64,000 nucleotides of DNA from Bacteriovoracaceae bacterium (GTDB taxonomy: Bacteria; Bdellovibrionota; Bacteriovoracia; Bacteriovoracales; Bacteriovoracaceae), in assembly GCA_025210745.1 (NCBI GenBank), contig JAOARC010000037.1:62001-126000 (forward strand), read 5' to 3'. How positions within the stretch are numbered: position 1 is the first letter of the stretch; the number at the start of each line of letters is the position of its first letter. Shown in pieces: positions 1 to 62,705 of the stretch. Under the pieces are notes generated by a model. It worked only from the letters and a program-made list of their open reading frames with translations, ran no database searches and was not told the origin of the DNA. Position numbers and translations under genes: made by a program.

Positions 1-953
1 GAAAAGTCCTCTAAAGAGTTATTAAATAATGCAAAACCAGCATTACAAAAAGCCGAAATACTATGAAAAAAGCCATAATACAAAGCCTGACCAAACTCAT
101 GCCCCTCAAAGAAAAACCCTGTAGATAATAAAATAGCTCCAAAAAATTCAATAACAAGAGTATATTTAATAATATCTAAAATCATATTTTTTAAATCTTC
201 AAAAGAAGATATATCTAATAAATCCTGCATTAAAACTTGATTTTTAACACCAAGAGACTTTCCAAGTAAAATAGTCATGGAAGATGATAGAGTCATAAAA
301 CCTAAACCACCTACCTGAATAAAAATTAAAACAATTATTTGTCCAATTGTAGAAAAATTATCTATTAACGAAATTGTTGAAAGGCCCGTTACACAAGTAG
401 CTGAAGTTGCTGTAAAAAAAGCATCAACAAATGTTATAGACTTCCCATCAGCAGCTGAAATGGGGAGGCTTAATAAAAGAGTACCGACAGCAATTAAACC
501 ACTGAATGACAATATTACAATTTGTGCAGGAGCAAGCTTCAACCTTTCTATAAAGGAAATTTTTGTTTCTATTGCTTCAATTTCATCTTGAGACTTATTA
601 GTATCTTGTTCATACAAAGAAAGCATTGATGAAAATAAATGAACTGCACTTAACCAAAAAGTAAATTGAATATCTCCCAACGTGATAATCATAGGAATAA
701 AAACAATAATAGAAAAAATATATTTTCTAACAAAGTCAGATATACTTAAACTTTTCTTGTAATACGAAATCATTGAAATAAATACGAAAGTTGGTGCTGC
801 ATATGTTAATGTACTTAATATAAAATTAAGATTAGTTGGATTGATATAATCAAATTTTAGTTTCTTTACTTCAAATAAGGCGTAAAGAAACACAAATATT
901 CCATTGAATATTAATTCCAAAAGAAATGGTATTTTCTGATATAGTCTATTCAT
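1..953 (-). CDS. ktrB: KtrB/TrkH-type potassium uptake channel subunit (partial, 3' end outside window)
   Basis: The frame is open from an ATG at 951-953 to the window edge, giving 317 residues with no stop. It carries hallmarks of the KtrB/TrkH superfamily: a pore-loop filter TATSATCVTG followed by L, the next-helix motif GGLGFMTLSS, and a second pore motif SISAFCNAGF near the edge. The hydrophobic segments around these fit the M1-P-M2 repeats. Established role: K+ (often Na+-coupled) import through the inner membrane, gated by a cytosolic KtrA/TrkA ring, which would have to lie outside the window. The N-terminal third (residues 1-120) is hydrophobic and divergent. A TATAAT box lies 12 bases upstream of the ATG on the coding strand. 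KtrB is preferred over TrkH because of the LAPAQ segment and length, but the two cannot be fully separated here. Confidence 0.85.
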   Translation of the reverse strand, partial: MNRLYQKIPFLLELIFNGIFVFLYALFEVKKLKFDYINPTNLNFILSTLTYAAPTFVFISMISYYKKSLSISDFVRKYIFSIIVFIPMIITLGDIQFTFWLSAVHLFSSMLSLYEQDTNKSQDEIEAIETKISFIERLKLAPAQIVILSFSGLIAVGTLLLSLPISAADGKSITFVDAFFTATSATCVTGLSTISLIDNFSTIGQIIVLIFIQVGGLGFMTLSSSMTILLGKSLGVKNQVLMQDLLDISSFEDLKNMILDIIKYTLVIEFFGAILLSTGFFFEGHEFGQALYYGFFHSISAFCNAGFALFNNSLEDF

Positions 954-20080: not shown

Positions 20081-21057
20081 CAAAGAAAATTAAATCAATA
20101 GCAGTATTAACAAGTGGTGGAGACTCTCCAGGAATGAACCCAGCAATTAGAGCAATCGTAAGATCTGCCATTGGAGCTGGCCTTGATGTTTATGGAATAA
20201 ATCGTGGATACCAAGGTCTATTAAAAAAGGATATCCACAAATTAGATGCTTCTAGTGTTGGTAATATTATTCAAAAAGGTGGAACTATTCTCTACACTTC
20301 AAGATGTCTCGAATTTAAAAAGCCTGAATATAGAGCAAAGGCCGCGCAGATTTTAAAAGAGTTTAATATAGATGCTCTTATTGTTATTGGAGGAGATGGA
20401 TCGTTTAAAGGTGCAATTGCTCTATCTGATGAACATGGCATCCCAGTCATTGGTATTCCAGGAACTATTGATAATGATATCTCTGGAACAGAATATACAA
20501 TTGGTTTTGATACAGCTGTTGAAAATGCTGTTGAAGCTATTGATAAAATTAGAGACACGGCGATGGCCAATGACAGAGCTTTTTTAATTGAAGTTATGGG
20601 TGCTAGAACTTCAGCGATAGCTGTTCAGGTTGGAATTTGTGCTGGAGCAGAGAACGTTCTTATTAACGGACAAGAAATAAACCTAGATGAAATCGCAAGT
20701 AATATCAACAGAGGTATTAATCGAGGCAAAAACTTTTCTGTTATTATCGTAGCTGAAGGTAAAACTCCAGGAAGAGCTTATGATATAGCTAAAGATCTAG
20801 AAGAAAAACATAATATTAAATCTAGAGTTTGTATCTTAGGTTATATTCAAAGAGGCGGATCCCCTAGCGTATCTGATAGATTCTATGCAAGTCTTATGGG
20901 TAAAAAAGCAGTTGAAGCTCTGCTAGAAGGTAAACTTAAGCATGCTATTGTTGTAAATAAAAACCTTGTTGAGGTTTGTGATCTTCACGACTGTTCTAGA
21001 AAATCAGATCACGTGATGAGCGCTTATATTGATGTTGCTAAGACTTTAGCTATTTAA
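20077..21057 (+). CDS. pfkA: 6-phosphofructokinase
   Basis: ATP-type phosphofructokinase of 326 residues. LTSGGDSPGMNPAIRA is the N-terminal ATP loop, IGGDGSFKGA a second nucleotide motif, PGTIDNDISGTE contains the catalytic Asp, and GYIQRGGSPSVSDR closes the fructose-6-phosphate site. The Gly after GGDG-S-x-x fits ATP rather than PPi dependence. Start codon inside gpmI. The 3' end overlaps the convergent ComM-like gene by 8 bp. Confidence 0.95.
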   Translation: MTKKIKSIAVLTSGGDSPGMNPAIRAIVRSAIGAGLDVYGINRGYQGLLKKDIHKLDASSVGNIIQKGGTILYTSRCLEFKKPEYRAKAAQILKEFNIDALIVIGGDGSFKGAIALSDEHGIPVIGIPGTIDNDISGTEYTIGFDTAVENAVEAIDKIRDTAMANDRAFLIEVMGARTSAIAVQVGICAGAENVLINGQEINLDEIASNINRGINRGKNFSVIIVAEGKTPGRAYDIAKDLEEKHNIKSRVCILGYIQRGGSPSVSDRFYASLMGKKAVEALLEGKLKHAIVVNKNLVEVCDLHDCSRKSDHVMSAYIDVAKTLAI

Positions 21058-21586
21058 TAACTCGATAACTAAGCTTAGGAATATGAGATAAAAGCGCACT
21101 AGTATCTATTTTAAAAAGGCTCGAGTCCATGGTACTAGAACTTGTTATGGCCTTTATATTATAAAAGTCCGAATCATTATGATACCTCTTTAAAAGATTA
21201 TCTAATTTTTTCGGTAAGTGATTTTGGTAGATAACTCCTTTAGTACTAATAAAGCCTTGGCAAATACAGTCGTCTAGTTTTCTAATTGGGAGTAAGCCTC
21301 CCAGATACCAATATAGAAGTATTGTAGGAAACTCTAATCCTTTTAAATCTTCCCATTTTTCATCACCATCTAAATCATTTATATCAATACTAATAACGTA
21401 CCTTCTTTTCTTTAGATAAAGCTCTCTCATCTTTGTTAGATAGATGATTTTTTCTTTAAGGCTTCTTGAAAGTCTTCCCATCCCTATAATATCGATTCCA
21501 GGGATGCCCTTTGTTGAGTACCCGAACAATGATACGATCTTAATGCCTTTTGATGTTAAAATATATGAGTTGATTCTTGCTTCCAT
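21050..21586 (-). CDS. Stand-alone ComM/YifB N-terminal domain protein
   Basis: 178 residues that follow the N-terminal (ribosomal S5/Lon-P-like) domain of ComM/YifB: ARINSYILTSKGIKIVSLFG, GIPGIDIIGMGRLSRSLKEKI, a basic RRYVISIDINDLD segment and FPTILLYWYLGGLLPI. The AAA+ helicase module and C-terminal domain that form the rest of the roughly 500-residue protein are absent, and the sequence after the domain shows no remnant. ComM drives branch migration during natural transformation. This may be a truncated relic or a regulator assembled with a full-length ComM elsewhere. No Shine-Dalgarno; TACTTT lies just before the ATG. Confidence 0.65.
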   Translation of the reverse strand: MEARINSYILTSKGIKIVSLFGYSTKGIPGIDIIGMGRLSRSLKEKIIYLTKMRELYLKKRRYVISIDINDLDGDEKWEDLKGLEFPTILLYWYLGGLLPIRKLDDCICQGFISTKGVIYQNHLPKKLDNLLKRYHNDSDFYNIKAITSSSTMDSSLFKIDTSALLSHIPKLSYRVIK

Positions 21587-22606: not shown

Positions 22607-23623
22607 ATGTTATCTAAGTACTTTAACTTTCATGATATTCAAGTTCAAGTTAATTCCAATAATAAACAAATCCTTGATCTTATGGAAAAGAACTTTTCAT
22701 ATTTTTTAGTAGATAATCTAAACGATATCTTTTTAACCATTGATGTATATATTTGTGATGAAGTTCCAATGGAAAAAATTCCTTCTATGATAAGCTCTCA
22801 TCAAACAAGAAATGCAATCATATATGATAAAGATAACTTTCGTTATTGTGACTATTATGGAAAAGGTATTATTATTTTTGATAAAATAAATAGTACGGCA
22901 AAAATCTATTGTGACGATATAAATTTTACTCATGAGTTAACCTATTTATTTCTTTTATCTAGAGTTGGTAAACAAATGGATTTAAATGGTATTCATAGAG
23001 TTCATGCATGTTCTTTTACCCTTGAAAATCATCCTGTTATCTGTATGATGCCTATGAAGGGTGGTAAAAGTTCTCTATTTCTAGAAATGATAAAAAATGA
23101 TGGAGTTAAGTTTATTTCAGATGATGCTCCTTTAATAACTAAAAAAGGTAAAGTCCTAGAGTTTCCTATTAGATTCGGTCTAGATCATATACCTAAAGAC
23201 CTTAGTTTTAATTCTGATTATATTTTTGAGCTTTATAGATCTGAGTTTGGAAAAAAGTTTTTATTTGATACAAGAGGATTAAGTATTCCTATTTATAAAG
23301 GATCTAAAAAAGCTCCTATCCTTATTCATGGAAAAAGAACTTCATTTAAGAAAGGGAAAATAAAAAAAATTTCCAAGTATAAAATGTTCTTTCATCTTAT
23401 AAAGTATTTAGGTGTTGGCCTTGGACTTCCTATTATTATTGAGCACTTTTTAGAAAAAGGCTTTAAAGATATTCTAGTCAGAGTTAAAATCACTGCTTTA
23501 AGATTAAGATGTATTATAAGCTTACTTAGAAAGTCTAAATGCTTTGAGATCTATCTTGGTACAGATAAAGAGCATAATGCAAAAATTATTTTAAATTACT
23601 TTGGGCAGCACCAAGCCCAATAA
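22607..23623 (+). CDS. HPr-kinase-like P-loop protein
   Basis: 338 residues. The N-terminal half is a mixed fold (EKNFSYFLVDN, KGIIIFDKIN). A Walker A loop PMKGGKSSL (Pro149 to Lys154) follows GIHRVHACSF and is followed by KFISDDAPLI, which is the HprK arrangement (P-loop, then an Asp-Asp motif). Such HprK-related proteins are found in polysaccharide and peptide-modification loci rather than in sugar-PTS control, and no HPr gene is visible here. Divergent GT2 and convergent pseudopilin genes suggest a role in surface-structure synthesis. The substrate is unknown. Start chosen from the leaderless promoter geometry. Confidence 0.7.
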   Translation: MLSKYFNFHDIQVQVNSNNKQILDLMEKNFSYFLVDNLNDIFLTIDVYICDEVPMEKIPSMISSHQTRNAIIYDKDNFRYCDYYGKGIIIFDKINSTAKIYCDDINFTHELTYLFLLSRVGKQMDLNGIHRVHACSFTLENHPVICMMPMKGGKSSLFLEMIKNDGVKFISDDAPLITKKGKVLEFPIRFGLDHIPKDLSFNSDYIFELYRSEFGKKFLFDTRGLSIPIYKGSKKAPILIHGKRTSFKKGKIKKISKYKMFFHLIKYLGVGLGLPIIIEHFLEKGFKDILVRVKITALRLRCIISLLRKSKCFEIYLGTDKEHNAKIILNYFGQHQAQ

Positions 23624-24690
23624 TGAGCAGTTTGACTTGCTTCAATTAAACATGAAGTTTCCCAGCGAGATGAACTCCCACTGGCCTGTAAAGCATTACG
23701 ACTATATTCAATTTTTCCACCTGCACCACAATCAGCTCCACCATATCTAGCAACAGAATGAGTAGAAGGACAATTAAATTGTCTTGATACTGAAATTGCT
23801 GAAGTCGAACTTGGGTTTGTATGAACTAACCCACCACTAGCTGCTGTTGCCGATATACAACCTGTTGGTTTAGTATCACACTTTCCTGAAACATATATAC
23901 CTCCAACAGAATTACAAAACTCTTCTTTTAGATATTCTTTTTCAGCGTATGGTAAGCTAGTTCGTATACATGTATTATTCTGCTCACTATAGCTTCCTCC
24001 CATAGCATTACAATTTTGTTCATGTTCATTCGTAAAAGCTTCTTCTAAATAACAACTTGTAATCGGCTCAGAAGGATTTGAATAAATGGTACAGTTTGCA
24101 CTATAACCAGGGCTTGATCCAAACTGATATTGTATTGGCGATGTCAAAGTTCCTTCAAAACCATCTCTTCTACAGTTTGCGACAACTTGATCCTTACTGA
24201 CTTGTAAAGGAACTGCAAAAGTATGTGTTGCACTTGGAGTATGCTTAAGTATGAGAGGATAACGTTTTTCAATTGTCTTTGATAAAAAAGATAGTTTATT
24301 TGTACTCTTTTTTTCAAGTGTAACAATTAAATCAGCCTTCGTTACCTTTTGTGAAGTCGTAGGAGTATTTAGTCTAATACTTGAAATAATAAATCCATCG
24401 TAGCTTTGTCCCGTTACAAACTGATCAATAACACCAATTGAATCAGCATATTTAAAAGCTGTTATACTATCAGTTGCTCTTTTTCCACTTAAGGTTGCAG
24501 AACAATGTTTTTGCTCCTTTAAGAGCATCTTTATTTTTTGATCTAAAAGCTCTCTTGATTCTCTTAGTCTTTCAGATTTAGCGATATCAACTCTTAACTG
24601 ATTTTGCTCCATATACTTATAAGCACCAAAACCTATAATTGCTAATGCAAATAATGATAGGATTAAAGCCGATCCATTTTGATTACTCAT
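23596..24690 (-). CDS. Cys-rich pseudopilin-like protein 3, lacking Glu5
   Basis: Third gene of a tandem triplet. The N-terminus NGSALILSLFALAIIGFGAYKY resembles prepilins but has Leu in place of Glu at position +5 after the Gly, as in tip subunits of the GspK type. The ectodomain carries the paralogous marks: an early Cys motif (HCSATLSGKR), MGGSY followed by a spaced Cys, EYLKEEFCNSVGG, a CPSTHSVARYGGADCG block, and a terminal Cys pair (WCCPK). The start codon follows directly on the stop of gene 2. The 3' end overlaps the HprK-like gene by 28 bp. Export and pilus-tip function are inference from the family. Confidence 0.75.
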   Translation of the reverse strand: MSNQNGSALILSLFALAIIGFGAYKYMEQNQLRVDIAKSERLRESRELLDQKIKMLLKEQKHCSATLSGKRATDSITAFKYADSIGVIDQFVTGQSYDGFIISSIRLNTPTTSQKVTKADLIVTLEKKSTNKLSFLSKTIEKRYPLILKHTPSATHTFAVPLQVSKDQVVANCRRDGFEGTLTSPIQYQFGSSPGYSANCTIYSNPSEPITSCYLEEAFTNEHEQNCNAMGGSYSEQNNTCIRTSLPYAEKEYLKEEFCNSVGGIYVSGKCDTKPTGCISATAASGGLVHTNPSSTSAISVSRQFNCPSTHSVARYGGADCGAGGKIEYSRNALQASGSSSRWETSCLIEASQTAHYWAWCCPK

Positions 24691-25758
24691 TTATTCCTCA
24701 CAACATGTTACAAAAAATTTGCCCGGAGTAATAAGCCCAGCTGAATTACACTGAACGTACCATTTATTAGACTCCGCTGAATTTACTAAGTTTCCAGGGT
24801 ACGAGTTTAGTACTCTTGTTGCAGTTGCTCCGCAAATACCTCCACCATTTATCGCGACTTGATTGGCACCAGGACATGCAATCCCAACTAAAGCGGTACT
24901 ATGTGTAGAGCTTACTTCATGTATAAAACAAGATTTATAAACACAATTATTTGTCACTTCATTGTATACCTTGCCCATAGAATTACAGACTTCTTCTTTA
25001 ATTAAACGAAGCTCTGATTCTCTAATGCTATTTCTTTGACAGGTTTCATCAGCAGAATTATAACTTCCTCCCAAAGAAGAACATTTATCTCTTAGAAAAT
25101 CACTTTCCCCATCCTTATCTACACAATTTACAATAGGATGGTCATATGCTGTCGTACATTCTGTTTGGCAACTTGCACTGTACTCGCCCGTTGTACTATT
25201 AAACTCTATTCCCGTATATAAATAACCACTATAAGATGACTCACACTGACTTTTTAAATCAGCACTACTAATATTAGAAGTTAATGTCACAATACTAGAA
25301 CTACATTTTTTAGCATAAAATTCAATCTTTCTTTTAAAGTTTTTTCCACCAATTGTTTTTTGATTGTTATTAATTTCAAAGTCTAACTCTAAAAACATTT
25401 TAGTTGTTTTTCCATCACTTAAGGAGTCTGTATTACTTGAAATACTCATCGACTTAATTGTTACTCCGTTATAGCTTTGCCCTGTAAGATATATTCCATT
25501 TCCAGCTCTTTTTATCCCCTCTAAAGCTCCATTTATATTTTGCCCAAACCTTTTACCTGCAAAAGTATCCGAACAACTTTTGATATTTGAAACTTCTCTT
25601 GAGATTTCTTGAGTAAGAATATTAATTTGATTTTTGATTTTTGATGTTTTTTCTACTTTTCCAGTTTCTTTACTTAATTGTAGAACAGAAAGAGCTCCAA
25701 CAGAAAGCACACCAATAGCAACTAAAATTTCAACTAAACTAAAGCCTTTTTGTTTCAT
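24691..25758 (-). CDS. Cys-rich pseudopilin-like protein 2
   Basis: Type IV prepilin N-terminus KQKGFSLVEILVAIGVLSVG: peptidase site after Gly5, Phe+1 and Glu+5 present. A coiled region (GKVEKTSKIKNQINIL) follows, then a C-terminal domain with many Cys: SCSDTFAGKRFG, SLGGSYNSADETCQR, RLIKEEVCNSMGK, CPGANQVAINGGGICG and a final CCEE. The Cys spacing matches both neighbours, so all three arose by duplication. 355 residues, much longer than ordinary minor pilins. Two bases separate it from gene 1. Confidence 0.82.
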   Translation of the reverse strand: MKQKGFSLVEILVAIGVLSVGALSVLQLSKETGKVEKTSKIKNQINILTQEISREVSNIKSCSDTFAGKRFGQNINGALEGIKRAGNGIYLTGQSYNGVTIKSMSISSNTDSLSDGKTTKMFLELDFEINNNQKTIGGKNFKRKIEFYAKKCSSSIVTLTSNISSADLKSQCESSYSGYLYTGIEFNSTTGEYSASCQTECTTAYDHPIVNCVDKDGESDFLRDKCSSLGGSYNSADETCQRNSIRESELRLIKEEVCNSMGKVYNEVTNNCVYKSCFIHEVSSTHSTALVGIACPGANQVAINGGGICGATATRVLNSYPGNLVNSAESNKWYVQCNSAGLITPGKFFVTCCEE

Positions 25759-25760
25759 TC

Positions 25761-26879
25761 TTACCTTTCACAACAAGTAATACTATAATTTCCCGAAGAA
25801 ACTGCACCATAACACAAAACAATCCATTTATTATCTTCTGCCAAACTACTTGTTGAGATAATAGATTTAGAATAACCATGAATCGCTTTAGAAGAGCTTC
25901 CACCACAGTTTCCATAACCAGATTTTGCAACCCTATTTCCAGGACAAATAAGCTCAACAGCCGTTAGTCCCCCAGCAGGGTTATAAGAAGCCGGTGATAC
26001 AGCATGTTCCGAGCAATTTTTTTCAATCAGTTGGCAGTTGCCACTAATAGTATCAAATTTTCCTCCAGAAGTATTACATACTTCTTCTTTTATTAAATTA
26101 AGTTCATCGTCAGGAATTTCAACTCTAGAGCAAGTAGAATTTCCTCCCGCCTCATGGTAACTACCACCCATTGTTACACAAGCGTCTTCTATAAATTGAT
26201 CTCTAGCATCTCCAGCAATACATTCTTTTATTTGGGAAGCGACTCCTAAATTTGTATCATCACATATTTCACATGAAACATCATAATTTAGACCATTAAT
26301 AACTAAGCCCTTTGTTAAAGATCCATTTCTTGTCACTCGACAAGCGTCTCTTGCTACTTTTGGTCCAGATGATACAGGAGAAGAAAAATTATCTTGTCGA
26401 CAATTTTTCTTAGCATAGATACTAAATTGTCTTTTTAAAATTTTAGCACCAATAAGCTGAGTATTCTTACCTCCATTAGTAAGATCAAATTCGACTTGAA
26501 TATCAAATTTTGTATTAACTCCATCATTATCTTTTCCTAGAATTTCAATAGAGCTTATTTGAACTAACTTATTTTTTGTTTTTGCTAAAGGTATCCCCGT
26601 ATTATAAATCACCTCATTATTTAAATTCTTAACTGTTGATAATTGGTTAAAGGATGATTCATGACTAAAGCCGCTAAAAGTATTGGTACAAGCTATAGGA
26701 TTTTGCATCTTCATTTTTATATCTTTAAAGATCTGATCCACTTCAGATTTTATATCTGAGCTCTTTTCATTTTGCATAGTCATATTCATAATTTTTACTG
26801 TTCCAAGGCTTACGAGTCCAAGAACACCCATTGCAATGACAACCTCAATTAATGAAAAACCTTTATTATTTTGAATCAT
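25761..26879 (-). CDS. Cys-rich pseudopilin-like protein 1
   Basis: First gene of the triplet. NNKGFSLIEVVIAMGVLGLV is a full prepilin signal (cleavage after Gly7, Glu+5). The ectodomain repeats the paralogue pattern: ACTNTFSGFSHES, MGGSYHEAGGNSTCSR, NLIKEEVCNTSGGKFD, CPGNRVAKSGYGNCGG and a terminal CCER. Type IV prepilins are processed by PilD and assembled into pili or secretion pseudopili; no pil assembly genes lie in the window apart from a pilF-like gene at 2.1 kb. The ATG is not preceded by a close Shine-Dalgarno: AAGGAGG lies 25 bases upstream. Confidence 0.82.
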   Translation of the reverse strand: MIQNNKGFSLIEVVIAMGVLGLVSLGTVKIMNMTMQNEKSSDIKSEVDQIFKDIKMKMQNPIACTNTFSGFSHESSFNQLSTVKNLNNEVIYNTGIPLAKTKNKLVQISSIEILGKDNDGVNTKFDIQVEFDLTNGGKNTQLIGAKILKRQFSIYAKKNCRQDNFSSPVSSGPKVARDACRVTRNGSLTKGLVINGLNYDVSCEICDDTNLGVASQIKECIAGDARDQFIEDACVTMGGSYHEAGGNSTCSRVEIPDDELNLIKEEVCNTSGGKFDTISGNCQLIEKNCSEHAVSPASYNPAGGLTAVELICPGNRVAKSGYGNCGGSSSKAIHGYSKSIISTSSLAEDNKWIVLCYGAVSSGNYSITCCER

Positions 26880-29397: not shown

Positions 29398-30657
29398 TTA
29401 TCCAGGAAATAGTCCTCTAAGCTTCATTGCTGCTTCCATCTTTTTTATTGAAGTGATCATTGCAGCAGTTTTCATATCACATTTAAAACATTCATAATTA
29501 TCCATTACCTCATAAAATGCTTTTTTCAATATAGAATGAAGTGTTTTATTAATTTGATCTACATCCCAAAAAAAGTGCGCTAAACCTTGAACCCACTCAA
29601 AATAAGAAACTGTTACTCCTCCAGCATTACATAAGATATCAGGAATAATAAAAACTCCTTTCTCAGATAAATGTGTTACAGCTTCATTAGTTAAAGGTCC
29701 ATTTGCTCCTTCAGCAATCATTTTAGCTTTTACCTTATCCATATTATCTTTTGTTATAACACCATCAATTGCAGCAGGTATTAAAACATCAACATCAAGC
29801 TCTAGAAGTTCTTCATTAGAAATTAAAGTTGCATCTTCGTAATCTTTTAAAAAGTTGCCTTCTTTTACCCATAAAGCCGCACTACCAACATCTATTCCAT
29901 TTGCATTATAAATAGCTCCTGAAACATCACTAACAGCAACGATCTTAGCTCCTTGAGCTGATAGATCTTCAGCTGCAGGAACACCAACTTTACCAAATCC
30001 ATGAATCGCAACAGTTGTATTGGAATCAACTTTTTTATTTAAGTAATCATAGGCAAAATTAATGCAATAAGCGACACCTCTTCCTGTAGCTTCTTCTCTT
30101 CCTAATGAACCACCAACAGAAATAGGCTTTCCAGTTACAACTCCATGAGCAGCATATCCATTAATCTGAGAATATGTATCCATAAACCAAGCCATTGTCT
30201 GCTTATCAGTTCCAATATCTGGAGCTGGAATATCTTTGTCTGGCCCAACAAATGGTCCAATTTCTGTTGCATATCTTCTTGTTAAACCTTGTAGTTCCTG
30301 CCTAGATAGATTTCTTGGATCTACTTTTATACCACCTTTTGCACCACCTAAAGGAAGCCCTACAAGAGCACATTTAAATGACATAAGCATTGCTAAAGCC
30401 GCTGTTTCTGATAGGTCTACATCTGGATGGAAACGAATTCCACCTTTGCCTGGTCCTAAAGTAATATTATGCTGAACTCTATAACCTTCAAATGTTTTCA
30501 CTGTACCATCATCAAGTCTTATTGGTACTGAAACTTGAATTGCTCTTTTAGGATATTTTAATCTTTCAATAATGTTTGGATCAATTTTTCCAACCTGCGC
30601 TGCCTGTTCTAATTTAGCTAAAGCATTTTGAAATAAGTCACTCTCGTATATACTCAT
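29398..30657 (-). CDS. gdhA: Glutamate dehydrogenase (Glu/Leu/Phe/Val family)
   Basis: 419 residues, the standard length of the hexameric S_50 type. LGPGKGGIRFHPDVDL binds glutamate, LPLGGAKGGIKVDP contains the catalytic Lys107, and a Rossmann domain follows with HGFGKVG. The C-terminal PDILCNAGGVTVSYFEWVQ is typical. The enzyme interconverts glutamate and 2-oxoglutarate plus ammonium. Peptide-fed bacteria use it to burn amino acids, which suits an organism rich in secreted hydrolases. Cofactor preference (NAD or NADP) is not decided by what can be seen. Confidence 0.94.
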   Translation of the reverse strand: MSIYESDLFQNALAKLEQAAQVGKIDPNIIERLKYPKRAIQVSVPIRLDDGTVKTFEGYRVQHNITLGPGKGGIRFHPDVDLSETAALAMLMSFKCALVGLPLGGAKGGIKVDPRNLSRQELQGLTRRYATEIGPFVGPDKDIPAPDIGTDKQTMAWFMDTYSQINGYAAHGVVTGKPISVGGSLGREEATGRGVAYCINFAYDYLNKKVDSNTTVAIHGFGKVGVPAAEDLSAQGAKIVAVSDVSGAIYNANGIDVGSAALWVKEGNFLKDYEDATLISNEELLELDVDVLIPAAIDGVITKDNMDKVKAKMIAEGANGPLTNEAVTHLSEKGVFIIPDILCNAGGVTVSYFEWVQGLAHFFWDVDQINKTLHSILKKAFYEVMDNYECFKCDMKTAAMITSIKKMEAAMKLRGLFPG

Positions 30658-53733: not shown

Positions 53734-54578
53734 TTTATTTTTCTTAAAAGCTTTTTCATAAAAGCAAGATAGTCCTCATCTCTTTTAGGATGTAAATCGA
53801 GTTTTATATAGTTTACACCTGATATTTCCTTAAATTTTTTAAGAATTTTAATAGGACTTGTATTTCCCGCTAATACTAAAAGAGGTCTGTCTTGTTTTAC
53901 TTTTTGAGCAATTTTACTCAAGAAACTCGCCGAAGGCAATACTCCGGGAACTTCTTCTAAAGATTCCTTTAAGTTTAATTTAAAGTCTTGAGCTAAATAT
54001 TGAAATTCTCTATGATATACATAAAAAACTTTATCTTTAAATTTATCCTTAAAATCATTAAACAAAGAAAGAAGAGACATTTTTATTTTTTTTGCATTGT
54101 TTTCTAATTTTACTCTTTCATACCCAATGCCTACCAAGCACTCTAGTACCCCATCAACAACCTCTGCCATCCTTAGTAAAGACAAAGTATAATGAGGGTT
54201 TCCACCAGGATGAATATCTCCCATTGAACGATTATAATCTTTTAAAAGTCCTACTTTTTTTACTTTTTTGCTAGCATCACAGAAACCTCTACTTTGAGGT
54301 TGTACTTTTTTATTTCCGGACATCTGAACAACTTTAGGAAACCATCCAATTTCTAAATCAAGTCCATTCATAATAACAAGATCAGCTTTTGCAACCTTAA
54401 AAATAAAAGATGGTGATGCATCAACAAAGTGAGGATCTTCTGTTCCACTCAAAAGAGAAATCGATCTTTGCTCAGTTAATTTTTCTACCACCCAATTTAA
54501 CTCGGGCAATGTACTAACAATATTTTTAGAAAATACATTTACCGAAATAAGAAGAAGTAAAACTATTTTAATAAACAT
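53730..54578 (-). CDS. znuA: Metal-binding periplasmic protein (ZnuA-like, cluster A-I)
   Basis: 282 residues with a signal peptide (FIKIVLLLLISVNVFS). Metal His are in EDPHFVDASPS (H50), GDIHPGGNPHYTLS (H129) and VYHREFQYLA (H189), as in ZnuA/MntC-type proteins. It lacks the His/Asp-rich loop of gamma-proteobacterial ZnuA. Zinc is favoured by the His-rich neighbours, but Mn cannot be excluded from sequence alone. Overlaps the outer-membrane gene by 11 bp. Confidence 0.88.
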   Translation of the reverse strand: MFIKIVLLLLISVNVFSKNIVSTLPELNWVVEKLTEQRSISLLSGTEDPHFVDASPSFIFKVAKADLVIMNGLDLEIGWFPKVVQMSGNKKVQPQSRGFCDASKKVKKVGLLKDYNRSMGDIHPGGNPHYTLSLLRMAEVVDGVLECLVGIGYERVKLENNAKKIKMSLLSLFNDFKDKFKDKVFYVYHREFQYLAQDFKLNLKESLEEVPGVLPSASFLSKIAQKVKQDRPLLVLAGNTSPIKILKKFKEISGVNYIKLDLHPKRDEDYLAFMKKLLRKIK

Positions 54579-55668
54579 GGGCAGGATGAGCTCCTATATT
54601 AAAAACAAATTGGATTAAACCTCGAGTATAACTTTCAGTGTCACTATCTTCAACATGAATTCCATTACCATGTTCTAATGTAAACCTTATTTTAGAAAAC
54701 TCACTATTTGTATATGTATAGCTTAAACTTAAAGCACTCATAGCATCTTCTACTTCAAGGCCATCAACAGAATGTCCATGTTCTTCACCACCATCTTCTC
54801 TTTCATCTTGAATATAATGATCTAGACGTACTCCCAAAGCATGATGTCTATTAATCCCCTTTTCTAGGTATACATAAGCACCCGAGTCAGTATGTTTTTC
54901 ATCATCATGCTCAAGTTGTCTTGTCCATATTTCTAATTGAAGTAATGTAGAAAGAAATCTTCCTGTTTTATTTTTATAAATTAAATCTAAACCATAATAC
55001 ATATATTTGTGACTCTGTTCATCTCTTCTTGAAATAACATTAAGCCCTATATCAACACCCTTTTGATCATCCAACTCAAAAAAAGTAGCATATCTTAAAT
55101 ACCCAGTTGGAGCCTTTGCTTTTGAATGGTTATGTTCAGCCTCTTCTTCATGATCATGTTCAGCACTATGATTAAATTCATTTCCACTAGTTAAACCAAA
55201 AGTCATAGAAGACTGAAGCTTAGGAAGATTTCTTTTATACTCTATACCTGTATCTTTAGCTCCTTCATTTCCAAAAAAAGACTTCTGGACAAAAGGTGCT
55301 TCTGTTATAACCCAATCGTGTCTATGAAAACGGTTTAACCTTCCAAAGCCCAAGAAAAACTTACCAATTTTTACAGTTGATAGATCAAAAATCTGACTAC
55401 TTAAAATAAATGCTTCATGAACTTCTGTATGAGCATGTCCTTGTTCTAATTCATTATGATGAGACAAAGTTAGAACTCCATCAAATGTCTGATCAATTTT
55501 AGAAAATGCAGAAAACTCAAATTCTCTAACATAAAAATCAGAATGAAGGCCAGCATTAGAGCTAGCACTACTTGCTACAATATCAGCTCCAGCAAACCAA
55601 TCAATTAAACTAAGCCTTCCTTGAGAAAAAGCACTTACTGAAACTAGTGCTATCATTAAATATTTCAC
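54568..55668 (-). CDS. Outer-membrane barrel with His-rich loops, metal uptake
   Basis: 366 residues from a GTG start behind AAGGAG. Signal peptide ends VSAFS. The body is a porin-like barrel. Three loops are rich in His and acidic residues: NELEQGHAHTEVHE, SAEHDHEEEAEHNHSK and EDGGEEHGHSVDG. The C-terminus reads FNIGAHPAHVY; a terminal HPAH is a recurrent ending of zinc-linked outer-membrane proteins. It lacks a TonB box and plug domain, so it is not a ZnuD-type receptor. First gene of the znu operon: outer-membrane entry, periplasmic carrier, importer. Confidence 0.8.
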   Translation of the reverse strand: MKYLMIALVSVSAFSQGRLSLIDWFAGADIVASSASSNAGLHSDFYVREFEFSAFSKIDQTFDGVLTLSHHNELEQGHAHTEVHEAFILSSQIFDLSTVKIGKFFLGFGRLNRFHRHDWVITEAPFVQKSFFGNEGAKDTGIEYKRNLPKLQSSMTFGLTSGNEFNHSAEHDHEEEAEHNHSKAKAPTGYLRYATFFELDDQKGVDIGLNVISRRDEQSHKYMYYGLDLIYKNKTGRFLSTLLQLEIWTRQLEHDDEKHTDSGAYVYLEKGINRHHALGVRLDHYIQDEREDGGEEHGHSVDGLEVEDAMSALSLSYTYTNSEFSKIRFTLEHGNGIHVEDSDTESYTRGLIQFVFNIGAHPAHVY

Positions 55669-57226: not shown

Positions 57227-58294
57227 ATGAAAATAATATTTTCTCTCATATTTATACTAAATGTAGCACTATCTAATGATTGTTTTATCAAGCCTCTAAA
57301 CTCTTGTCGTGATGGATATACGAAAAACTTATCTAAATCCCAAATTAGAAAAGCGCAAAGATCGAAAGAAAACTCAATATATAACTCCATTTTCAATTCA
57401 TTTACTTCTAAAACCACACACCAAGACTTTATAAATAGCTTTCTTAAAATTGAAAAAATCAACAAACAATATAATCGCTGTAAACTCAATCCTGATAATT
57501 CAGATAAATATTGTCTTAGACTAAGCTTACAAAAAATAATTTATTATGGTTATTCAAGAAAATACCTTGATGCAACAGCTACAATGATTCTACTAAGTAA
57601 ATTCACTTATAAAAAAGGTAAATATTCTGGTGGACTAGATAGCTATGCTAGCAAAATACATTTGCTTCAAAAAAGCTATACTAAGAATCAAAAAGATACG
57701 ACCAATTATTCTCTTTCCCCTTTATCAGATAAAAAATATCTTAAAAGCTTTGGTAAACTAAAAAAACTAACTCCAAGACAAAGTACATTACTTCGCTATA
57801 ACTACTCGCAAATAAAGTTTATGGGAAAAATCATGCAAGATTTTGAACAAAGAGTACTTGCTATTAACTCTGGTGTCTTTTTTGACTTTGATGGTGACGG
57901 CAAACAGGATGAGACTTATATTTTTGATGAAGCCGAAAAATATAGATTAAGTGTAAAACTTTTAAAACTAGAACTAGAAAAGAAGTCTCATACAGGAGAA
58001 GTCTTTGAAGGTAACAAGCCTGATTTTCACGATTTACTAGTTGCGTCAAGTGAACTTGGATTAATTAATAACGAGGCCTTGGCGCAAATGATTGAGATGC
58101 CATATCTCTATGAACAAAAGGTCTCTCCATGGATAAAAGTAGGTAATATTACTTGGGAAATTGGAAAGTCTATTGCCATGGCAATGCCAGGTATAAATCT
58201 CTTTGCCATTATTCCAATTGTATTAGTAGAAAGTATTAAAAGCTCAAAGGATAAAAAGAATGAAACTTCTGATCTTCATATTATTACTTTCTAG
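57227..58294 (+). CDS. Exported hypothetical protein with Ca-loop-like motif
   Basis: 355 residues, signal peptide ending ALS (residue 16). Mostly helical. An EF-hand/dockerin-like loop DFDGDGKQDE lies near residue 220. The C-terminal part is hydrophobic (GKSIAMAMPGINLFAIIPIVLVESI), possibly a membrane-inserting segment. Cys near the N-terminus (NDCFIKPLNSC). It overlaps the metallopeptidase gene by 35 bp, so the two are likely coexpressed. No family recognised; no Shine-Dalgarno. Confidence 0.68.
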   Translation: MKIIFSLIFILNVALSNDCFIKPLNSCRDGYTKNLSKSQIRKAQRSKENSIYNSIFNSFTSKTTHQDFINSFLKIEKINKQYNRCKLNPDNSDKYCLRLSLQKIIYYGYSRKYLDATATMILLSKFTYKKGKYSGGLDSYASKIHLLQKSYTKNQKDTTNYSLSPLSDKKYLKSFGKLKKLTPRQSTLLRYNYSQIKFMGKIMQDFEQRVLAINSGVFFDFDGDGKQDETYIFDEAEKYRLSVKLLKLELEKKSHTGEVFEGNKPDFHDLLVASSELGLINNEALAQMIEMPYLYEQKVSPWIKVGNITWEIGKSIAMAMPGINLFAIIPIVLVESIKSSKDKKNETSDLHIITF

Positions 58295-59441
58295 TTTCGC
58301 TCATGCTCTAGAGTATAAATGCAAAGCTATTGTTAGAAATAATAAGCACAAACTTATCATTTCAGAAGTTACTCTAAAAGATCTAACCTCTAAAGACAGC
58401 TTCAGTGGTAAATATATTAAAGTTTTAAGAAGAAATGAAACTCTAGCTGTGAAGTTTAATTCTGTAGATAGCTTAAGAGCTTGTACAGTGTACTATCATG
58501 GTAGTAAAGCAAAAGACTTTTTTCAGCAAAATTATGATTTAAAAAGACTAAAAAGACCTCGTGCAATTGTCATGAGAATAGAAATGGATTTAGGTTTCGA
58601 AGAATCAGTACACATGATGCATCAAAATAACGGTTTATTTTATAACAATGCTGTAACAATACCACCAAGTGGGCCTGGAAGAATAACTGAAAAACCTTGG
58701 TTTTATGAAATATGGTTTGCACCTAAAAAGAAAGTAAAAATTGATAATAACACATACAAAGCAGCACAGTTAGTTTCAAGTGGACCATTTATGTCGTCAA
58801 TGCTCTTAGGTGTAGGACAATCACAAGCCACGACAATTGGAATTGACCTTATAAGAGGTACTGGTTTTGGAGCAAGCTTTTATGCTAAGACTTTAGCTTT
58901 ATCTTTAGGGGTGACTGCATTAGTTCCACAAGTTTTAAAGTATGTATCTAAGCCATTTAAGAAAACTATTTTCTTAGATACGGCAATGATTCCAGAAGTA
59001 ATCTATCATGAATATACTCATTATGCTTTGAGTGAGCATCTTCCTATAAGTAGACACTCTTCAACAGTTGAAGGGATTGCTAACTTTTATGCTGCAGCAA
59101 TCAGTAATACTGACTCTATTTTAAAAAATGCTAGAAAATACTCAAGAGGATTAGTTAAAGTTGAAGCTAAAAAAGATAAAAACTATGAGTACTATATGGA
59201 AGATAGTAAATACGCTCAACTTGATTTTACTTTTAAATTTCTATATGCCTTAAATGGAGCGTTTGGAAAAGTTTACGCTCAAAAGCTTGTTTTTACTGCA
59301 TCTAAGATTTTAGGTTCCAGAGATTCTTTAGGAATAAAAACTGATCTTATTCCAGCATTACGATTAGCACTTGATGAGCTTGGTGCAACTAGTGCTAAAA
59401 ATTTTAAGCTGCAAAGTCTAATTCAAAAGTTTGGTTTTTAA
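58260..59441 (+). CDS. Secreted zinc metallopeptidase-like protein (HEYTH)
   Basis: 393 residues with a signal peptide ending AHA. YHEYTHYAL contains HExxH (H250, E251, H254), and VEGIANFY provides a Glu (E271) 17 residues after the second His, a gluzincin pattern. Upstream there is a strand-rich N-terminal domain (1-150) and a hydrophobic stretch near 200-225 (TLALSLGVTALVPQVL). AAAGGAT precedes the ATG inside the previous gene. Substrate unknown. The short helix before HExxH (ITAMIPEVI-like) fits a real catalytic site. Confidence 0.72.
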   Translation: MKLLIFILLLSSFAHALEYKCKAIVRNNKHKLIISEVTLKDLTSKDSFSGKYIKVLRRNETLAVKFNSVDSLRACTVYYHGSKAKDFFQQNYDLKRLKRPRAIVMRIEMDLGFEESVHMMHQNNGLFYNNAVTIPPSGPGRITEKPWFYEIWFAPKKKVKIDNNTYKAAQLVSSGPFMSSMLLGVGQSQATTIGIDLIRGTGFGASFYAKTLALSLGVTALVPQVLKYVSKPFKKTIFLDTAMIPEVIYHEYTHYALSEHLPISRHSSTVEGIANFYAAAISNTDSILKNARKYSRGLVKVEAKKDKNYEYYMEDSKYAQLDFTFKFLYALNGAFGKVYAQKLVFTASKILGSRDSLGIKTDLIPALRLALDELGATSAKNFKLQSLIQKFGF

Positions 59442-61844: not shown

Positions 61845-62705
61845 TTAATTAATAATATCTTTTAGCTCTTTAATAGCTGACGTTTTTATAGCAAGCTCAT
61901 AAGCATCACTTTCATCATGTTCAAATGATTTCATGCATCCCTTATCACTTGAAAATAAATCTGATTTACCATGAACTAAAATCCCCTCAACCTCATAAGT
62001 ATTTTCATTTACTAAAAGTGTCCCTTGATTTTCACCAGCAATATCTGAATTTGTTATAAAGTTAGTAGTGTTTTGCTTCATTACTTTTACATCTGAAGCA
62101 ACCTTTAAAGGAGTACTTTGCATAAATCCCATAGCAAAAAACTTTGTGTCTAATGATAAATCATTTTTCAAATTAACTTTTAAAGGAGATCTACCTGATA
62201 CTGACTTTTTTAATTCAATAATTGAATAACTGATTGAAGTTGATGGATCTACAATTGTTTTTACAACATTTTTACATCTATAAACATTGCTTTTTGTAAA
62301 AGAGTCTGGATATGCACTCTTGTCCATTTGGTGATAATCAAATACCCATCTATAAAAATCATTAAAACAAGTATGCATTGTTACATGGCAATCACCTGCA
62401 GTTAAAAGGTGTCTGTCAGAAATTAAAAAGGCTGTACATGAACTTTGAACAGTTGCCCTAAAACTTGGCTGAGAAGCAAACTTTTCATCCTTACAAAGAA
62501 CTTGATCTGATAGTGGCCATGACTGGACCTCTACTTTTGAGCTAAACAAGCTTCCCTGAATGTCCTTTCTTGAAACCTGGATAGCGATTGATCGAGACAT
62601 TTTAAGTAGCTTTTCGTTTTGAATTTCATATATATCTTTTCTTGAATCGTCCCCATAATATGCAAAAGCACTTGAAATTACAGACAATAATACTATTTTT
62701 AACAT
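61845..62705 (-). CDS. Trypsin-like (S1) protein without catalytic triad
   Basis: 286 residues with a signal peptide ending SAFA. The S1 outline is clear: SSCTAFLISDRHLLTAGDCH, then SYSIIELKK, and DIAGENQGTLLVN. All three catalytic places are changed: the His of TAxHC is Asp105, the Asp of D-x-A-L-L is Ser159, and the Ser of GxSGxP is Gln227. The Cys that flank the active site are kept. It is therefore probably a non-proteolytic S1 homologue, perhaps a binding protein or inhibitor. GGGAGA precedes the ATG. Confidence 0.78.
   Translation of the reverse strand: MLKIVLLSVISSAFAYYGDDSRKDIYEIQNEKLLKMSRSIAIQVSRKDIQGSLFSSKVEVQSWPLSDQVLCKDEKFASQPSFRATVQSSCTAFLISDRHLLTAGDCHVTMHTCFNDFYRWVFDYHQMDKSAYPDSFTKSNVYRCKNVVKTIVDPSTSISYSIIELKKSVSGRSPLKVNLKNDLSLDTKFFAMGFMQSTPLKVASDVKVMKQNTTNFITNSDIAGENQGTLLVNENTYEVEGILVHGKSDLFSSDKGCMKSFEHDESDAYELAIKTSAIKELKDIIN

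Follow-up and report, generated by a model that had tools for sequence, protein, structure and literature searches.

Do three adjacent cysteine-rich prepilin genes of a Bacteriovoracaceae bacterium encode the parts of one pilus tip, or three pilins that act separately? The genes, here called pilins A, B and C and together the trio, lie in a stretch of 64,000 nucleotides (positions 62,001 to 126,000 of contig JAOARC010000037.1, assembly GCA_025210745.1), which is referred to below as the window and whose numbering is used unless a locus or contig is named. The prey choice of bacterial predators is largely open, pili are suspected to take part in it, and the host of these genes is probably a relative of predatory bacteria. 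We propose, at a probability of roughly 0.5, that the trio forms one heteromeric minor-pilin tip, in which three matching six-Cys heads with a predicted PCSK9/resistin-like fold would come together as a binding head of three lobes, locked by disulphides. Minor-pilin tips are already known; what the models would add is a trio of minor pilins whose head is unusual and predicted to be resistin-like, within a family of differing heads.

The three proteins and their ectodomain

25761..26879, minus strand: pilin A, 372 residues, leader MIQNNKG^FSLIE, 16 Cys, Pfam N_methyl 29.3 bits, first in reading direction
24691..25758, minus strand: pilin B, 355 residues, leader MKQKG^FSLVE, 16 Cys, Pfam N_methyl 28.9 bits, structure modelled
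23596..24690, minus strand: pilin C, 364 residues, leader MSNQNG^SALIL, no Glu at position +5, 14 Cys, no Pfam match

The initial annotation described three coupled genes for proteins of 355-372 residues, and the open reading frames (ORFs) agree with it, being separated by 2 bases (A-B) and 0 bases (B-C) and spanning 23596-26879. By their sequence A and B are members of the type IV prepilin superfamily; both exceed the Pfam N_methyl cut-off of 21.2 bits and that of TIGR02532 in NCBIfam. Pilin C matches a pilin family in neither database and displays a short leader, the site Gly^Ser-Ala-Leu-Ile-Leu and a hydrophobic stretch, so that the prepilin N-termini first described for all three stand by family match for A and B and only by site and hydrophobic stretch for C. 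The Leu at +5 of C bears out the earlier observation that the third member lacks Glu+5. Beyond the general prepilin motif no known pilin family was matched above its cut-off: PilV (TIGR02523) scored 30.9 bits with B and 23.9 with A against a cut-off of 52.2, and TadE, TadF and TadG were absent from the matches of the trio up to E 1 in Pfam and NCBIfam.

All of the Cys blocks first listed were found in A, B and C alike, namely C-x2-T-x2-G (C62 of B), (M/L)GGSY with a Cys, KEE(V/F)CN, CP(G/S)...CG and a terminal CC, and the Cys number is even in each protein. Identity to B is 34% for A and 27% for C over the full length, 34% and 24% over the body, and 41% and 31% over the ectodomain, which is therefore the better conserved half. 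Searching the host's own genome (a 2.72 Mb assembly of 50 contigs, 88% complete) with A retrieved B at E 1.4e-46 and C at 1.7e-14, a likeness beyond chance. These comparisons support a description of A, B and C as prepilin-type proteins with one common disulphide-type ectodomain, whose parts are as follows.

26025..26198, minus strand: two Cys-GG-hairpin modules (C-x3-GG-x-Y/F...C) of A, residues 228-285, from sequence and motif count, helix and hairpin by analogy with the model of B
24937..25104, minus strand: two helix-Cys-GG-hairpin modules of B, residues 219-274, in the model helices 219-228 and 247-260, each followed by two short strands
23866..24033, minus strand: two Cys-GG-hairpin modules of C, residues 220-275, from sequence alignment and motif count
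25764..26015, minus strand: terminal six-Cys CC domain of A, residues 289-372, from alignment and Cys spacing
24694..24930, minus strand: terminal six-Cys CC domain of B, residues 277-355, from the models, with a predicted PCSK9-module/resistin-like fold
23599..23859, minus strand: terminal six-Cys CC domain of C, residues 278-364, from alignment and Cys spacing

Two models were predicted, one of the whole protein (predicted local distance difference test, pLDDT, 60.2; predicted template-modelling score, pTM, 0.39) and one of the ectodomain (74.9 and 0.55). They predict a pilin helix and beta sheet as well as the small helix-Cys-GG-hairpin modules; the end of the chain is predicted as a beta sandwich arranged as in PCSK9 and resistin. 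In both models the last ~80 residues match PCSK9 modules, resistin and RELM-beta, mostly at Z 5.0-6.2, and the terminal CC domain, which has six Cys in A, B and C, is accordingly predicted to adopt a PCSK9/resistin-like fold. The early statement that no described family has this C-terminal domain holds for Pfam, NCBIfam and PHROGs, none of which contains the ectodomain, but has to be qualified by this predicted fold.

It is conceivable, though in our judgement rather unlikely, that the resemblance to PCSK9 and resistin is the coincidence of a common small beta sandwich and that the head belongs to some other disulphide-rich type of domain, perhaps a lectin-like one, a reading that overlaps with that of a tip. 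Several observations weigh on this side and against the fold we prefer. The whole model is weak, built on three sequences, and the ectodomain model is moderate; every Z is below 8, under which a match may be mere common arrangement; the best rows outside PCSK9, resistin and RELM-beta reach Z 5.6 and 5.0, and a phage depolymerase (6tku, Z 5.0) equals resistin in one comparison. No Foldseek row reaches E 1e-3, the PCSK9 rows have a TM-score over the query of only 0.32-0.39, and with the whole model PCSK9 comes fifth by E (0.23), after four rows of probability 0.10-0.12. In the comparison that gave the depolymerase the start register also varies, 16 of the 24 PCSK9 rows beginning at residue 558 and 4 on module 1 (455..529), and a 75-residue viral protein matches well too (probability 1.00, TM 0.70 over the target). 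At E 10 the terminal domains of A, B and C have no match in Pfam and the terminal domain no sequence match in the PDB. Against a coincidence, the top family by VIA-align 2 is identical for both models, resistin and RELM-beta surface alongside PCSK9, and six Cys with a terminal CC fit a three-disulphide module such as those of PCSK9, one of whose pairings is 608-679. By analogy with PCSK9, the disulphides of B would be nested, as C277-C353, C295-C352 and C309-C337. The viral fold library gave no row at E 1e-3.

The ectodomain of the trio is present in one of 129 family genomes, its own. No homologue other than the window's own proteins was found among 5.8 billion proteins, in searches that required shared 5-residue words and of which one scored the best 7993 candidates, nor in viral contigs (query A2) or genome contigs (query B). 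The module motif is more widely spread: C-x3-G(G/N/K/A)-x-(hydrophobic)...C, which in the model of B forms a helix followed by a hairpin, was counted 29 times in 21 of 41 proteins, where shuffled sequences would give 3.2. Used alone, the terminal domain has matches in 8 of 339 phylum genomes at E 0.05, its own genome included; the seven others were read in one frame each on the stored strand, leaving aside a 1654-residue frame behind L044, and none was counted as a relative, the best (6e-4) lying in a stop-containing frame. Matches of the respiratory syncytial virus (RSV) fusion protein F2 profile over the helix-hairpin part (E 0.018-0.29) were taken as chance, with no structural support. Four proteins of genus g24 that end in CC (G024, G134, G122, G124) looked resistin-like by eye; they were set aside at a profile-comparison probability of 0.4% with the window domain and no PDB match. 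Another Cys-rich end closing in CC is carried by the pilins at L053:3377-4642, L108:3078-4349, L109:6621-7805 and L110:3474-4646.

A family-wide pilin body, recurrent trios and differing heads

The N-terminal body is, as judged by profile, a family-wide prepilin family and not peculiar to the trio. A profile built from ten bodies, three of them the window's, matches 120 of 125 family genomes, the host's included, with one to fifteen matches each, some of which are limited to the profile's N-terminal half and may in part be more distant pilins. The five matches in the host genome are the trio and two single relatives, L004 on contig C38 and L005 on C45. Single, unlinked homologues with no N-terminal prepilin signal were, in the initial annotation, to speak against its interpretation; single, unlinked relatives of the body do exist, but they carry a prepilin-like N-terminus.

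We read 41 loci, a biased set chosen for having matches, in which G009 and G146 represent one genus. The profile picked 95 proteins in them, 61 of which have Glu at +5 by automatic site calling. There are 20 clusters of at least three neighbours: 17 have just three members, and the remaining three have four, five (at a cut edge) and six; 19 of the 20 contain a member without Glu+5 and 18 lie on a single strand. At L113:4491-13156, six adjacent pilins with E,E,Q,E,E,Q at +5 make up two successive trios. The Cys number after the leader is even in 83 of 90 complete proteins (naive binomial p 7e-18, the sequences being related) as compared with 23 of 39 among the other mechanical window ORFs that have at least 200 residues and two or more Cys, which fits full disulphide pairing; the odd number in the other 7 of the 90 tells against it.

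The heads attached to this body differ widely. Complete proteins have mature lengths of ~200 to 1281 residues and 2 to 156 Cys; the products of L062:4606-8502 and L052:6047-9358, of 1298 and 1103 residues, have 156 and 107 Cys, and that of L026:1483-2370 has a C-terminal DUF4214. Ectodomains match in 42 of 72 pairs of neighbours at the same locus, compared with 79 of 3560 pairs from different genera. Together with the recurring trios that include a Glu+5-less member, this frequent matching of neighbours strengthens the idea of a heteromeric tip.

A C-terminal S74 domain (chaperone of endosialidase, phage tail fibre) was found by Pfam on four pilin-body proteins, three of which also exceed the N_methyl cut-off. 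All three members of the G136a trio and 4/4 scanned members of the G014 cluster carry S74 as well, these seven being pilins by body profile, with N_methyl not reached at E 1e-3. Among the matches listed, paired by contig and open frame, such fusions occur in at least 14 genomes, plus G010, G013 and G034; S74 of any kind is found in 83 of 125 family genomes, and PF13884 has 0 matches in the host's own genome, 88% complete. Pilin-body proteins ending in S74 lie at L065:7861-9465, L069:6251-7705, L030:1489-3402, L033:1480-2772, L112:5044-9769 and L125:1245-11999, several with an SDxxxK motif.

Could the trio instead consist of tandem duplicates of one surface-displayed minor pilin that act separately, as independent adhesins or as variants on one pilus, with heads that need not touch? 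We consider this unlikely, and several points against a joint tip are points in its favour. One branch of the body tree has A, B and C together on one side, with weak support (73/50; recovered in 74% of 200 bootstrap trees, the bootstrap not being settled), and local duplication is clear at G136a, G136b, G014, G115 and G075. Body-family pilins are also encountered alone or as pairs, and a cluster of three or more is absent from 21 of the 41 loci. Ectodomains of neighbours are unmatched in 30 of the 72 pairs, including 0/3 matches in each of the trios G006, G017, G032, G087 and G137, and matching heads within a locus would also follow from plain tandem duplication. Speaking against separate duplicates, A, B and C diverged long ago (26-35% identity) and yet have kept their operon and common ectodomain, the latter conserved above the body; exactly three members and one without Glu+5 are the rule among the clusters; and at G017, G020 and G087 each of the three positions forms its own lineage, conserved from genus to genus (two groups starred, one 99/72), which is what subunits occupying different places should show.

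Returning to the joint tip, we envisage that prepilin peptidase matures A, B and C and that each chain gives one helix to a base and one disulphide-locked head. GspK sits at the top of the pseudopilus, and C, which lacks Glu+5, may likewise occupy the top. The three heads would touch, packing as three PCSK9 modules or three resistin chains do, so that the pilus, carried by one machine of the genome (PilB-PilT-PilC, Tad or the type II secretion system, T2SS), would end in a three-lobed adhesin. Such a tip could attach the cell to prey or surfaces. The same packing logic fits G136a, whose three heads are without exception S74 ends; such ends serve trimeric fibres. The interpretation first given to the locus, a heteromeric minor-pilin tip with an adhesive, disulphide-locked domain, is in part supported: prepilin type, disulphide ectodomain and a third member without Glu+5 are retained, but the body is family-wide and the absence of a described family needs the qualification given above.

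More tentatively, the three-pilin tip may be a universal socket for exchangeable trimeric heads in Bacteriovoracaceae-type bacteria, resistin/PCSK9-like six-Cys lobes in one lineage and S74 ends in others, with matched sets of three being swapped and the pilus acting as a cell-borne, prey-specific tail fibre. The proposed tip would put a resistin/PCSK9-type module on a bacterial pilus, and sets of three pilins that recur throughout the family with differing disulphide-rich heads, phage-fibre ends among them, would constitute a readable recognition repertoire.

The insert and the pilus machines of the genome

21587..29397, strand not assigned: insert of ~7.8 kb between a 178-residue ORF (21050-21586) and glutamate dehydrogenase (29398-30657)

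Besides the trio, the insert holds a family 2 glycosyltransferase (GT2), an HprK-like ORF, a PMT-like membrane ORF and a nucleotidyltransferase-like ORF, the names other than GT2 resting on weak family matches; these neighbours suggest a possible glycosylation of pilins or of the surface. The last two have a G+C content of 24-25%, compared with 33-35% in the trio. In six of six relatives showing both flanks (L131, L132, L133, L164, L165, L166) the flanks are less than 0.7 kb apart and the insert is missing, which makes the trio accessory here; the second flank of L166 is cut by the contig end, L130 and L167 do not have both flanks in view, L168 and L169 were left out, and the records may overlap in species. 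None of the seven insert ORFs matches a mobile-element family in Pfam or NCBIfam. Among six matched records the glutamate dehydrogenase is nearest to those of an uncultured Oligoflexia metagenome-assembled genome (MAG; 77%), a Bacteriovoracaceae bacterium (72%) and a Bacteriovoracales MAG (70%), and the host is likely of Bacteriovoracaceae type. Promoter-like sites (11 against 15.1 in shuffles) and terminator-like sites (3 against 1.6) were not used as evidence. Elsewhere in the window, three ORFs of 355-393 residues (54568-55668, 57227-58294, 58260-59441) have no Pfam match at E 1e-3.

The insert contains no gene recognised as part of a pilus machine, which counts against the tip we propose. 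The host genome has PilB-, PilT- and PilC-type neighbours at C15:502651-506140, a Tad-type pair at C15:560196 and 561703, and a T2SS-type locus on C14, with GspE/F-type genes at 66468-68826 beside GspH/I/J-like genes of 0-1 Cys (all names inferred from family and position). PilY1 (PF05567) had no match in this genome, but its control matched nowhere, so that absence cannot be read from it. That the trio is a dedicated pseudopilin set of a type II-like secretion system, pushing substrate as a GspI/J/K-like trio with no part in adhesion, would agree with three minor members of which one lacks Glu+5 and with the XcpGHIJK pseudopilus as a weak match to the fold of the body, but is very unlikely given the genome's own T2SS-type locus on C14, scores far under the cut-offs for gspI (B 16.9 bits, cut-off 44.35) and gspJ (B 12.3 and A 17.4, cut-off 64.85) with no GspK match listed, and no secretion gene recognised in the insert by Pfam or NCBIfam.

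Comparison with known systems

In titles and abstracts, with most subscription papers outside the literature covered, nothing joined resistin with pilin and structural similarity, resistin-like with PCSK9 and bacteria, or S74/endosialidase with pilin or prepilin. The trio heads resemble PCSK9 and resistin in their predicted terminal fold, their six Cys and their three copies per locus as against three modules in PCSK9. They differ from both in having no sequence match to them and in belonging to bacterial prepilin-type proteins; PCSK9 is one chain and resistin is made of identical chains, whereas the trio is three separate chains.

The GspI-GspJ-GspK tip consists of three minor pseudopilins of which one lacks Glu+5, and the trio shares with it the number of members, the Glu+5-less member and a pseudopilin-like body. 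It is set apart by the model scores far below cut-off, by the separate T2SS-type locus in the genome and by the large Cys-rich heads, which are extra in the trio.

The mosaic adhesive trimer (MAT) fibres of Bdellovibrio are surface adhesins with mosaic tips (PMC10769870), and some relatives in the trio's pilin family bear the same S74 end. MATs follow a signal peptide, the word 'pilin' is absent from that text (PMC10769870), and the window's own genome has no S74 match.

KilL-KilM-KilN of Myxococcus xanthus are interchangeable Kil/Tad minor-pilin tips, genetically tied to predation and modelled as heterotrimers (PMC12075869). The likeness lies in three clustered minor-pilin genes, which for Kil come with a predicted heterotrimer, an N-terminal helix bundle, variable distal domains, many predicted disulphides and paralogous interchangeable sets, in a predator (PMC12075869). 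The Kil pilins are TadE/F/G relatives, whereas A and B are of the GFSLxE class and match no Tad family, and the extremity of a Kil tip is the distal domain of KilN (PMC12075869), whereas in the window trio all three members carry the same head. The interchangeable Kil/Tad tip of Myxococcus is the closest working precedent for the window trio.
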